DNA of 64,000 nucleotides from Hymenobacter cellulosilyticus (GTDB lineage Bacteria > Bacteroidota > Bacteroidia > Cytophagales > Hymenobacteraceae), in NCBI RefSeq assembly GCF_022919215.1, contig NZ_CP095046.1:5570501-5634500 (forward strand). The letters run 5' to 3'. Shown here piece after piece: positions 11,324 through 19,458 of the stretch (the stretch's first letter is position 1; every line of letters starts with the position of its first letter). The position numbers were made by a program, and so were the translations under genes. The notes under the pieces are model-generated. The model had not been told where the DNA came from. It did not search any database and saw only the letters and a program-made list of their open reading frames with translations.

Positions 11324-12240
11324 ATGACACGGCCTAAAATGATTCTCGCCGGTGGTAATGGGTTCCTGGGTCAACACCTGACGCGCTATTTCACCCAACT
11401 GGGCTACTCCGTAGTAGTGCTTAGCCGCCAGCCGCAGGCGCGGGGTGTGCAGTGGGACGGGCGCACGCTTGGGCCCTGGGCCGCGGAGCTGGAAGGAGCC
11501 GCAGTAGTAATTAATCTGGCGGGCCGCACAGTTGACTGCCGCTACACCGCGGCCAACAAGGACGCCATTACCCGCAGCCGCACCGAAAGCACCCGGGTCA
11601 TTGGCCAAGCCATTGGGGCTTGCCAGAATCCGCCGGCGGTGTGGCTCAACTTATCGACAGCCACTATTTATACCCACACCGAAGGCAAGGAGCCCGCCAA
11701 CACAGAGGCGGCCGGGTTATTGGTCACAACTTCTCCGAAACGGTAGCTCAGCAGTGGGAAGCGGAGTTTTGGCAGGCTGCTACTCCCCACACGCGCCGCG
11801 CGGCCTTGCGCACAGCCATTGTCCTGGGTCCTGATGGTGGCGCCTTGCCCGTCGTGGCGCGCCTGGCGCGGTATGGCCTGGGCACGCCGCAGGGCACGGG
11901 CCGGCAGTGGGTAAGTTGGCTCCACGTGCTGGACTTTTGCCGCGCCGTGGAGTTTCTGCTGTCCCGCCCCGACCTGGATGGCACCTTCAATTTCTGTGCG
12001 CCTACTCCCCTGATTAATCAGGAGTTTAATGGCCTGCTCGACCATTACTACCGGCCACGCTTGCACCTGCCCCAGCCCCGGTGGCTGCTCGAAATTGGCG
12101 CCCTGCTGCTCAGAACCGAGACCGAGCTTATTCTGAAAAGCCGCAAAGTCGTGCCCCAGCGGCTAACCCAGGCGGGCTTTGCCTTCCAGTTTCCGACCTG
12201 CGACCTGGCCCTGGCCGACCTGGTACCCCAGCTGCCCTAG
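11324..12240 (+). CDS. TIGR01777-type NAD(P)-binding epimerase/oxidoreductase (1 frameshift)
   Basis: Repaired length about 305 residues. The Rossmann motif is ILAGGNGFLGQHL at the N-terminus. INLAGRTVDCRY, the TRSRTESTRVI helix and WVSWLHVLDF are hallmarks of the TIGR01777 branch of extended SDR proteins (YfcH-like). The C-terminal region FNFCAPTPLINQEF ... LRTETELILKSRKVVPQRL also fits that family. The reaction is not established. The frame slips near 11720 by one missing base. It follows the GbsR-type regulator and precedes a small membrane protein, an arrangement consistent with a small regulated operon. Confidence 0.85.
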
Positions 12241-14517: not shown

Positions 14518-14982
14518 TTACTGCAGCTGAATTGCCCGATTCATGGTTTCTTCCAGCGAAATAAGCGTTTCGGTACGCTCAATTCCTTCGATAAGCTGCA
14601 CCCGGTCGTGCAGTACGTCGCGCAGGTGCTGGGTGTCGCGGCATACCAGGCGGGCAAATACGCCGTAAGCGCCGGTGGTAAAATGAATGCTCACGACTTC
14701 GGGAATTTCCCGAAGTTGCTCTACCACGCTGGCATACACCGAGCTTTTCAGCAGATAAATTCCCAGGAATGCGCTTACGCCATAGCCTAGCTTTTGGTAA
14801 TCAATTTTGAGGGTAGCCCCCTTCACAATGCCTAATTCCTCTAAACGCGCCATTCGGACGTGCACGGTGCCCCCTGAAACGTGCACCTTACGAGCAATTT
14901 CGGTGTAAGGAATCTTGGCATCCTCGATCAGAAGGGCCAATATTTTGCGGTCGGTGTCGTCAAGTTCGTAATTGCGGGCCAT
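14518..14982 (-). CDS. Lrp/AsnC-family transcriptional regulator
   Basis: 154 residues. The N-terminal winged helix is DDTDRKILALLIEDAKIPYTEIARKVHVSGGTVHVRMARLEELGIV. The C-terminal RAM (ActD-like) domain is GVSAFLGIYLLK ... VVSIHFTTGAYGVFARLVCRD ... IEGIERTETLISL. Family members bind amino acids and act as octamers or hexadecamers. It is transcribed away from the small-RNA locus at 15092-15343, so that RNA is a possible target or partner, but this is only positional inference. Confidence 0.92.
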   Translation of the reverse strand: MARNYELDDTDRKILALLIEDAKIPYTEIARKVHVSGGTVHVRMARLEELGIVKGATLKIDYQKLGYGVSAFLGIYLLKSSVYASVVEQLREIPEVVSIHFTTGAYGVFARLVCRDTQHLRDVLHDRVQLIEGIERTETLISLEETMNRAIQLQ

Positions 14983-15091
14983 TTTTCAGCGGGTTGATTG
15001 CCTAATTTGCAAATCTTCGTCAGTGATACTAAAAATTATGTAAAGTTTATGCCATATGTCTGCAATTATTTTATGTATTCAATTGAAATAC

Positions 15092-15099
15092 TAAATTTG
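15092..15099 (+). promoter_or_regulatory. -7 box of the putative small RNA
   Basis: TAAATTTG matches TAnnTTTG exactly in an AT-rich stretch, predicting a start near 15106. I see no perfect TTG at the ideal distance upstream. Confidence 0.55.
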
Positions 15100-15132
15100 T
15101 TACAATCCAACGCAAACGGTGCTGGACCATCT

Positions 15133-15246
15133 TGTAGAATGATGAAACTGGCAGACATGCCCTCCTCTCTCGGGGTGGTGAATTGGGAGAAACTGGTCCG
15201 GCGGCCGGCTAACTACACCGTGGAGGTTCGAACCCTTCTTCTACAG
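15133..15246 (+). other. tRNA-like domain with Leu-type D arm and oversized variable region
   Basis: A 7-bp acceptor stem TGTAGAA/TTCTACA closes the element. The D arm (TGATGAAACTGGCAGACAT) is of the tRNA-Leu type, and the T arm is GGAGG-TTCGAAC-CCTTC. The anticodon arm is poor: CCCTC/GGGGT has a C-T mismatch, and the loop CTCTCTC would present CTC. About 45 nt lie between the anticodon and T arms, where GGTG/CACC encloses a CCGG-cgg-CCGG hairpin. The discriminator is G and no CCA is encoded. At 114 nt it is too long and irregular for a normal decoding tRNA. Confidence 0.6.
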
Positions 15247-15312
15247 CTGATCAGTTGGACAATGTGAGGAGGGAAAAACCAGGACGTATCTGGGTGGGTA
15301 CGTTCTTCAAGA

Positions 15313-15343
15313 GGCTGCATCTGGGTGGGTGCAGCCTTTTTTT
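15313..15343 (+). terminator. Rho-independent terminator of the small RNA
   Basis: GGCTGCA, loop TCTGGGTGGG, TGCAGCC, then TTTTTTT. Confidence 0.85.
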
Positions 15344-15595
15344 GTAGTAATAATCTGCGGTAGAAGCTGTCAATTCTCTGCTTCTGAAACCCAACTGGGT
15401 GCAAAGGAAATCAAAAAACAGAAGAAGTTGAAAGTTGGCATATAAAAGGCCAAGCCTAACCAAGTGATAGTTCGGAACGGGTATAGCAGTAGTCATTCGG
15501 GGAAAAACAGTTGCACAACCGGATATAATGCCCATTGACAATAAGGGAGTACAAAATCAGGCAAAAGGTTGCTTAGCTTAAATGATAAAATGCGC
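15344..15595. other. Unassigned AT-rich spacer
   Basis: Between the small-RNA terminator and the dsbD terminator I see no credible ORF, repeat or promoter. A 96-codon minus-strand frame at 15251-15541 overlaps the structured RNA and has no domain. Confidence 0.5.
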
Positions 15596-15652
15596 AAAAG
15601 CCGAAGTAGCATTGAATAAGAGTAGACTTACTCAATACCACTTCGGCTTTTC
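15596..15652. terminator. Terminator of dsbD-like gene
   Basis: AAAAGCCGAAGT pairs with ACTTCGGCTTTT. An inner partial stem (ATTGA-TAAG with CTTA-TCAAT) extends it. Confidence 0.85.
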
Positions 15653-15687
15653 CTTGCGAGGAAAATAAACGGTATCAGGACCTTATT

Positions 15688-18128: not shown

Positions 18129-19458
18129 ATGGGATTAAAAATACTACTGACGTTTTTGTTGGTGCTGATAAACGGCTTTTTCGTAGCCGCTGAGTTTGCC
18201 TTCGTTAAGGTCCGCCTGTCACAGATTGAGATAAAAGCGCAGGGAGGAAACCGCTTGGCCAAGCTGGTCGAGAGCATGCTGCACGACCTGAACTACTACT
18301 TATCCGCCACCCAGCTGGGCATTACCCTGGCTTCGCTGGCGCTGGGCTGGATCGGGGAAAGCGTAGTAGCGGAGGTCGTCATGGCGATTATTCACCAGCT
18401 CAACATTACCGTTTCTGACGCGGCCGTTCACAAAATTGCCCTGTTCACGTCGTTTACCCTGATTACCGTGCTGCACATCGTGCTCGGCGAACAGGCACCC
18501 AAGGTTCTGGCAATTCAGAAGCCCGAAACGACTTCCATGGCCATTGCCATCCCCTTGCGGGCCTTTGCGTTTGTCACCTTCCCCTGATCTGGGTGCTCGA
18601 CCGGCTGTCGAATATCGTAGCCGGCTTGTTTGGGGTAGCGCCACGCATGGCACCGAGGTGCACACCTCGGAAGAGCTGCGCCTGCTGCTGGATCAAAGCA
18701 AGCAAAGCGGCGAAATCCAGGAGTCGGAGCACGAGCTGATCGAGAACGTGTTCCAGTTCAACGACCGGATGGTAAAGCAGATCATGGTGCCCCGCACAAA
18801 GCTTTCGGCCATCGACGTGGCTACGCCCCAGGACAACATCCTGGAAATCGTCTACAACGAAGGCTACTCCCGCATTCCGGTGTTCGAAGACAATATCGAC
18901 AACATCGTGGGCGTGCTCTACGTGAAGGACCTGCTGCCGATTGTGCGTCGCCACGAGCCGATTGTGCTGTCCAAAATCATGCGCCCGGCCTACTTCGTCC
19001 CGGAGACCAAGAAAATCAACCGGCTGCTGCGCCAGTTTCAGCGCAAGCACACCCACATGGCCATCGTCTCGGATGAGTTCGGCGGGGTCTCGGGCATTGT
19101 GACCATCGAGGATATTATGGAGGAGCTGGTGGGCGAAATCCAGGATGAGTATGACAACGAGGTACCGGTTGTCGAGAAGATTTCGGAAACCGACTACCGC
19201 GTCAATACCTCTACCCCGATTTCCGACGCCAACGAGTACCTGCCCTACCCCTTGCCCGAGGGCGACGACTACGAAACCGTAGGTGGCCTGCTCAACGTCA
19301 TCTATGGCAATATTCCGGAAGTAGGCGACGTGGCCGTGCTCGACAACTACGAGTTTCGGGTATTGCAACGCTCCCGCCGGGCCGTGGAGTTGGTACAGCT
19401 TCGGGTTACAGCCGATGAGGAGCGCGAACTGGAACCCGGCGAAGGTTTGGATATGTAA
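18129..19458 (+). CDS. CNNM/CBS/CorC-HlyC domain membrane protein (2 frameshifts)
   Basis: Repaired length about 443 residues. The N-terminal CNNM (DUF21) region starts with LLTFLLVLINGFFVAAEFAFV and contains several helices. A CBS pair follows (IMVPRTKLSAIDV ... YSRIPVFEDNIDNIVGVLYVKDLL, then HMAIVSDEFGGVSGIVTIEDIMEELVGEI). The CorC/HlyC C-terminal domain ends near FRVLQRSRRAVELVQL. Relatives are implicated in Mg2+/Co2+ export; the historical hemolysin label is not supported. The frame slips near 18585 and 18650, each by one missing base, exactly between the membrane and CBS parts. Confidence 0.9.

Follow-up and report, generated by a model that had tools for sequence, protein, structure and literature searches.

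A tRNA-like RNA family with covarying stems in Bacteroidota and viral contigs, tied to GatB and a candidate adaptor for asparagine synthesis

In E. coli, AsnC switches on asnA when asparagine is short, and in strain K-12 the two genes are divergent and separated by 151 bp. Decoding tRNAs carry, almost universally, U33 and a purine at position 37. Some tRNAs serve outside translation, an example being a tRNA-Gly that serves peptidoglycan in staphylococci, and amino-acid synthesis has often been proposed as a use of early tRNAs. According to PMC9976931 and PMC4206432, amidation of Asp-tRNA(Asn) is conferred by the U1-A72 pair and prevented in tRNA(Asp) by G1-C72 together with U20a. Bacterial Asp identity is placed mainly in G73, G34, U35, C36 and C38 (PMC9976931). 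Genera with AsnRS, GlnRS and GatCAB and without Asn synthetase, Bacteroidetes genera among them, are treated in PMC4206432, where retention of GatCAB is ascribed to tRNA-Asn.

The window, i.e. the whole 64-kb stretch of DNA that was analysed, carries at 15133-15247 (+ strand) a 115-nt member of a new, covarying family of tRNA-like RNAs of Bacteroidota and viral contigs. No account of such a tRNA-like RNA was found in the open-licence PubMed Central literature. With the system in which a non-discriminating AspRS and GatCAB act on tRNA-Asn, the family shares U1-A72, G73, an Asp-like anticodon region, GatB and the lack of a canonical AsnB; it differs in that the putative carrier is a separate RNA, 109-196 nt long, which has U37 and a long variable arm but lacks a fixed U33, and in that AsnRS is also present. 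The D-loop layout, the T arm and a variable arm between positions 44 and 48 are those of type II tRNAs (tRNA-Leu, tRNA-Ser), whereas U1-A72, the UCUC loop, the variable-arm internal loop GANAAA/CUAA and the lack of an ARAGORN or Rfam match at the window copy set the RNA apart. tmRNA is likewise tRNA-like and found beside phage tRNA genes, but the RNA has a full D arm and an anticodon-like arm, and its window copy gave no ARAGORN or Rfam tmRNA match. As at asnC-asnA of E. coli, the gene lies divergent from an AsnC-type gene, here at a distance of 150 bp; the partner is an RNA gene and not an asparagine synthetase gene. The use proposed below would place the RNA among tRNA-like RNAs working outside the ribosome, although in those described the tRNA body is normal and the amino acid is a different one.

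Layout, fold and covariation

The segment 15092-15343 is flanked by a gene for an AsnC-type regulator of the Lrp/AsnC family (14518-14982, - strand, 154 aa) and by a DsbD-like gene, the latter named from inspection of its ORF. The box TAAATTTG, which we take to be a -7 promoter box of the Bacteroidota type, was read at 15092-15099 (+ strand, as are all following features). The RNA itself, from U1 to the encoded C74, matched model R1 at 116.3 bits and is delimited by covariation and by the determinant counts given below, on which the 7-bp acceptor stem (15133-15139 with 15239-15245) also rests. It is followed by a D arm with a 3-bp stem and a Leu-type loop (15142-15158; compensatory changes at two of three pairs) and by an anticodon-like arm (15160-15175), whose stem covaries in relatives and whose loop CTCTCTC (15165-15171) corresponds to positions 32-38. 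The long variable arm (15177-15219) consists of an outer 4-bp stem, an internal loop GGGANAAA/CUAAC and an inner hairpin and was assigned by covariation, the T arm with loop TTCGAAC (15222-15238) by covariation and alignment. The G73 discriminator and encoded C74 lie at 15246-15247. Downstream, a module at 15265-15343 comprises a purine-rich leader, twin hairpins (approximately 15282-15307 and 15312-15336) with the common tip UCUGGGUGGG, and a T7 terminator (15337-15343). An earlier, sequence-only reading had listed the -7 box, the 7-bp acceptor stem, the Leu-type D arm, the TTCGAAC T arm, a long variable region and two hairpins with T7 after the second; all are present in the sequence. Further downstream, a long near-perfect inverted repeat (15590-15657) lies near the 3' end of the DsbD-like gene and is perhaps its terminator.

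ARAGORN found no tRNA or tmRNA in the window copy, and Rfam at gathering threshold gave nothing there, neither RF00005 nor tmRNA; relaxing the limit to E ≤ 5 yielded nothing but chance microRNA matches, which lie outside the tRNA-like RNA (downstream, in the inverted repeat). Folding energies compared with shuffles gave z = 0.37 for the tRNA part and z = -1.75 for 15100-15345. Folding energy alone would therefore miss the RNA, whose structure is revealed by comparison of relatives. A BLASTN search of 79 genomes, among them that of the window, gave matches in 56, belonging to the same genus and to other families of the order. The matched sequences align as tRNA-like RNAs in which the length of the variable arm is very different.

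In an alignment of 25 sequences, the six helices were paired in 96.9% of 699 cells. Both sides had changed in 15 of 28 pairs, as compared with a mean of 8.4 in shuffles, none of 500 of which reached 15. The covariation score was 0.387, against 0.166 when shuffled and at most 0.141 when the structure was slid. For all five measures the observed value was reached by 0 of 500 shuffles, and every slid version was lower. Pairing amounted to 98.7-100% in the acceptor, D, anticodon, outer variable and T helices; the outer variable stem was 100% paired with three of its four pairs covarying, and the inner variable helix was weaker (79%). Like an elongator tRNA, the family thus forms a cloverleaf with a 7-bp acceptor stem and D, anticodon and T arms. 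The claim that the locus encodes an undescribed small RNA is supported by the strong covariation and by Rfam, which returned no known ncRNA family for it; of the checks proposed at the time, BLASTN finds the RNA in other genomes of the genus and beyond it, and the covariation analysis supports the stems.

The anticodon arm had also been called defective. This is true of the window copy, which has four G in the 3' strand of the anticodon stem where relatives have five, but not of the family: relatives have an intact stem, CCCUC/GGGGG or compensated forms, and a 7-nt loop, and the full stem is present in G045, whose locus is 95% identical to that of the window. In the window's assembly, AsnRS and one asparagine-synthetase homologue are split across frames and a stop lies inside GatB. 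Given these frame breaks and the position of the missing G in a G run, a sequencing indel is the likely cause. Genes that look split or interrupted by a stop lie in the window at 11324-12240 and 18129-19458 and elsewhere in the same assembly (G000) at C1:1253884-1255265, C1:2331907-2333591 and C1:4163379-4164746, which suggests indel errors in the record.

A 77-nt form, in which the whole variable arm is missing, was found in 10 of 47 other genomes of Hymenobacter. Two copies were read, and both retain U1-A72, G73-C74 and the UCUC loop; their cloverleaf pairs were read by eye, the lowest-energy fold of both being different from a cloverleaf. The variable arm is therefore dispensable, the parts read by tRNA enzymes being kept. 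Two further features were considered and rejected. A pseudoknot between loop UCUC and the variable-arm GGGA is compatible with the window and with several relatives; as a general feature it was ruled out, since N34 mismatches its partner in many copies and CUGA or CGAA often replaces GGGA in phages. The resemblance of CCUCCU to the 16S anti-Shine-Dalgarno sequence was likewise dismissed, because the stem changes with compensation.

The twin hairpins had been read as part of the same RNA. This did not hold: the 3' module is kept in L022, L023 and L028, where the tRNA-like part is degenerate, and in L027, L046 and L047, where it is gone. BLASTN matches to the module alone were confined to Hymenobacter among the 79 genomes, and in the two genomes read (L049, L050) a second RNA copy ends in a plain terminator. 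The hairpins would thus be a separate, later unit of Hymenobacter rather than part of the RNA family, and perhaps constitute a small RNA of their own.

Distribution and conserved positions

Following a scan of 395 genomes of the phylum with R1, 40 genomes were classed as carrying the RNA (89-129 bits). One further genome, G042, scored 72.8 bits and the best of the rest 66.3 bits; R1 matches up to the latter value in other genomes were taken as ordinary tRNAs without individual check. Over all sets, family members scored 68.7-133.8 bits and matches coinciding with ARAGORN tRNAs at most 54.7. The RNA was present in all genomes of f11 (3), f19 (8) and f27 (5), in 7 of the 10 f23 genomes and 11 of the 13 f24 genomes, and also in all three of f67, which belong to a different class. 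Tandem copies were common. The short form (pattern GGTTCRANNCCNNNNNNYACAGC) was found in none of 41 RNA-negative genomes (the 40 of the panel described below and G439), while the positive controls G000 and G029 were detected.

A loop-pattern scan of GTDB contigs gave at least 119 stretches; the titles among the 80 matches listed are of Bacteroidota, e.g. Hymenobacter, Algoriphagus, Dyadobacter, Saprospiraceae and Chitinophagaceae. The same kind of scan gave 88 matches in viral contigs. Of the 80 viral loci examined, 79 contained a full-length R1 match (68.7-124.5 bits), the remaining one being cut by the locus end. Among the first 60, ARAGORN tRNA or tmRNA genes (up to 25) were present in 33 and absent from 27. 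Nine of ten proteins from four viral loci had PHROGs matches, including a terminase large subunit (L216), DNA polymerase and helicases (L265) and an RNA ligase (L255). Among named phages (INPHARED) and plasmids (PLSDB), one query each gave no blastn match.

Determinants were counted in 247 rows, representing 214 distinct sequences. Left out were the degenerate copies L021, L022, L023 and L028 (set A4), the A2 rows after the 79th (ordinary tRNAs, others and the cut L272) and three A3 rows (L133, which is cut, and two weak ones). Among the distinct sequences, U1-A72 and U3-A70 were each found in 213 and G2-C71, G73 and the encoded C74 in all 214; the acceptor ends of the model's 25 sequences had been picked with a TGT...TACAGC pattern (failed by 3 of 47 copies, the degenerate L021-L023), a choice that favours U1-U3, A70-A72, G73 and C74 in later matches without enforcing them. 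U35, C36 and C38 were each present in 214/214 and UCUC at 35-38 in 213, position 37 being U in 213 and C in one; 179 of the 247 rows belong to loci retrieved by a pattern in which most of the loop is fixed, and loop variation was judged on the 68 rows of A4 only. In these 68, found without the loop pattern, position 33 was not U in 10. At position 34, G was counted 175 times, C 23, A 14 and U twice, the 39 sequences without G34 including the window, other Hymenobacter, Pontibacter and G394.

Set against the AspRS determinants, G73, U35, C36, C38 and G2-C71 are thus invariant, G34 is found in part of the sequences only, and U1-A72, the feature of a GatCAB substrate, replaces G1-C72. The anticodon is not the GUU of tRNA-Asn, C36 being invariant. 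U33 with a purine at 37, as in elongator tRNAs, does not characterize the family, and since U33 is not fixed and position 37 is U, the RNA probably does not decode.

Neighbouring gene and co-occurring enzymes

The protein encoded beside the window copy carries the Pfam AsnC HTH and ligand-binding domains and is 38% identical to E. coli AsnC. AsnC is its best NCBIfam model (155.8 bits, next 80.2), at a score below the equivalog cut-off of 227. In 80 of 122 loci (the BLAST-found copies plus the 80 listed GTDB pattern matches), the nearest gene upstream is divergent and belongs to its blastp cluster, some loci being cut too short for a decision. By coordinates, an AsnC orthologue was adjacent and divergent in 30 of the 40 RNA-positive genomes, those of f67 included, and not in the other 10. 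Of the 80 loci that have this divergent gene, 64 carry TANNTTTG at a distance of 15-80 nt upstream of the RNA, as compared with a mean of 4.7 in mononucleotide shuffles. Other neighbours were considered as a guide to function and rejected, as none is widely conserved: a sufB-like 481-aa gene was second upstream in 20 loci and an acyl-CoA-ligase-like gene downstream in 14, both named by sequence inspection. TTTGCAA or TTGCAAA occurred in 22 of 80 asnC-RNA intergenic stretches against 2.1 in shuffles (in the window at approximately 15006-15012) and is possibly an AsnC binding site.

For enzyme searches, a panel of 80 genomes was used, consisting of all 40 RNA-positive genomes and 40 chosen, non-randomly, from the 355 scoring under 89 bits; of the latter, 24 belong to the same class as the RNA-positive ones and 16 to other classes, and genomes are not independent. 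The link with GatB, from which the presence of GatCAB was judged, had been predicted before genomes were searched for enzymes. GatB was found in 40/40 RNA-positive genomes, in 1/24 RNA-negative genomes of the same class and in 16/16 of other classes. AsnRS was over cut-off in 40/40 RNA-positive genomes, and GlnRS was present in 33 of them and in 23 of the 24 same-class RNA-negative genomes; the exception, G119, is the one that has GatB. Within the class, among genomes with both AsnRS and GlnRS, GatB accompanied the RNA in 33/33 and was found in 0/23 without it (Fisher 3e-16, ignoring phylogeny). Since these 33 genomes have AsnRS and GlnRS, GatCAB is not needed there for Asn or Gln codons. In f23, the RNA and GatB were both present in seven genomes and both absent from three; in f24, the numbers were 11 and two. 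Because both families are split, a single ancestral event is unlikely, and the joint absence, judged from the families rather than from a tree, likely reflects more than one. Seven of the 16 other-class genomes (G091, G092, G097, G100, G108, G117 and G223) have GatB, AsnRS and GlnRS and may use GatCAB on tRNA-Asn itself.

Canonical AsnB, defined as an orthologue of the G080 protein at E ≤ 1e-80, was found in 0/40 RNA-positive genomes, 18/24 RNA-negative genomes of the same class and 0/16 of other classes. The RNA is therefore strongly tied both to GatB and to the absence of canonical AsnB. Seventeen of the 18 AsnB proteins are at least 68% identical to the G080 protein, and that of G130 is 40% identical. 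In G130, an asparagine synthetase gene and the second-best asnC homologue form a divergent pair separated by 118 bp, and in the other 17 no divergent pair of asnC and an asparagine synthetase gene was found by coordinates. AsnA was present in 4/40, 8/24 and 0/16, respectively, and in 1 of 10 further RNA-positive genomes of the order. TIGR01536 was over cut-off in 65 of the 80 panel genomes. At least one such protein other than canonical AsnB, mostly of 590-690 aa among the matches listed, was present in 35/40 RNA-positive genomes, and these proteins may make asparagine. Neither AsnA nor an over-cut-off asparagine synthetase was found in the other five (G394, G226, G343, G076 and G058), of which G058, G343 and G076 have homologues below cut-off (174-219 bits).

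Of the 47 genomes of Hymenobacter, 31 had the long RNA, 10 the short form and six no intact copy. AsnA was present in 6/6 without intact RNA against 10/41 with RNA (Fisher 0.0007), where G017 (66.3 bits) was classed as not intact; were it intact, the contrast would be 5/5 against 11/42. Loss of the RNA in this genus thus seems to be restricted to genomes in which AsnA can take over.

Proposed function and alternatives

Taken together, the conserved determinants of aspartylation and amidation and the AsnC-type neighbour suggest an Asp-to-Asn adaptor, and we consider it probable, arguing from sequence and gene content, that the RNA is a dedicated, non-coding adaptor for GatCAB-dependent asparagine synthesis. 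In short, the RNA would be processed like a tRNA and aspartylated by AspRS via U35, C36, C38 and G73. GatCAB would recognize U1-A72 and amidate the aspartate to asparagine, which would be freed or passed on as an asparagine supply in bacteria without canonical AsnB. The divergent AsnC-type regulator probably induces the RNA under asparagine shortage, in the way that AsnC controls asnA, and phage copies, often located among tRNA genes, would probably keep the asparagine supply running. For the wider picture, in which a tRNA outside translation acts as an RNA coenzyme that makes Asn, replaces AsnB in part of the Bacteroidota, stands under AsnC-type control and is carried by phages, we see about even chances. 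The idea of a tRNA mimic bound by tRNA enzymes, put forward in the sequence-only reading, gains support from covariation, the phage tRNA arrays, the aminoacylation and amidation determinants and the co-occurrence with GatB.

Several findings speak against the adaptor. G34 is absent from 39/214 sequences, including that of G394, which has neither AsnA nor an over-cut-off AsnB. U1-A72 is atypical for AspRS, whose tRNA has G1-C72, and the huge variable arm might hinder this enzyme. Other TIGR01536 proteins occur in 35/40 RNA-positive genomes and AsnA in 4/40, genomes of other classes keep GatB without the RNA, and 10/40 RNA-positive genomes have no adjacent asnC.

The same determinants and the same link with GatB would be expected if the RNA were charged and amidated as an Asn or Gln donor for ribosome-independent transfer (to peptide, lipid or cell wall), or if its charged state were a signal. 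The asparagine-synthetase homologues in 35/40 RNA-positive genomes fit this reading, as does the fact that no hydrolase was recognized by eye among eight neighbour proteins. We nevertheless hold it to be unlikely: every sampled Hymenobacter genome without an intact RNA has AsnA, its occurrence is complementary to canonical AsnB, the neighbour is of AsnC type, and no transferase gene was recognized as a common neighbour.

GatCAB may alternatively act on tRNA-Asn charged by a non-discriminating AspRS, with the RNA as an accessory or regulator, for instance a decoy of AspRS or GatCAB under AsnC. The non-decoding loop and the adjoining regulator gene are compatible with such a role, and this use of GatCAB is described in PMC4206432 for genera with AsnRS, GlnRS, GatCAB, no Asn synthetase and a U1-A72 tRNA-Asn. 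The proposal leaves unexplained why, within the class, GatB is kept beside GlnRS and AsnRS only with the RNA, and why C74 and U1-A72 of the RNA are near-invariant, and it appears improbable.

That the locus derives from a tRNA which decayed and was retained, together with the two hairpins, as a regulatory RNA, the other suggestion of the sequence-only reading, might be derived from the degenerate copies with hairpins (L022, L023, L028) and from the hairpins alone in L027, L046 and L047. Intact, covarying copies in 40/395 genomes of several families and in viral contigs, as well as the nearly intact window copy at 116.3 bits, make this very improbable; constraint on the family extends over genera and families and into a second class, and decay was seen only in some Hymenobacter species, all six sampled genomes without intact copy having AsnA. 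Least credible is that the RNA decodes GAN codons (Asp/Glu) as a tRNA with an odd variable arm. The anticodon position does read NUC, mostly GUC, and phage copies lie near tRNA genes, but U33 is not conserved, position 37 is U in 213/214 and a normal tRNA-Asp GUC is already present in some phage arrays, for example those of L218, L239 and L255.

If the adaptor reading is true, it would explain why GatCAB is kept in many Bacteroidota with AsnRS and GlnRS and without canonical AsnB, and the task of this tRNA-like RNA would be the synthesis of an amino acid instead of decoding. A function is thereby also suggested for an RNA that some phages carry between tRNA genes and that was missed here by ARAGORN and Rfam.

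Viral copies show further variation. In many of them, such as those of L239, L247, L253 and L255, the tip of the variable arm contains GGGGUAGACCACC and, after it, a GC-rich palindrome that differs between copies (GCCGGCCGGC, GCATGCATGC, GCTTGCAAGC, TCCTGCAGGA), possibly a dimerizing loop. An insert before GG of the D loop, mostly a hairpin, was seen in L200, L205, L206, L208, L225, L234, L239 and L240, and likewise in L242, L245, L248, L253, L254, L257 and L277. A different RNA with tRNA-Leu-like ends lies at L231 7213-7350. Four RNAs on the - strand of L213 (5129-5276, 6142-6262, 6477-6616 and 7682-7830) have constant tRNA-Leu-like ends, corresponding to the acceptor, D and T arms, and differing middles; similar RNAs occur in L218, L275, L278 and L279, and they look like tRNA scaffolds with variable inserts.
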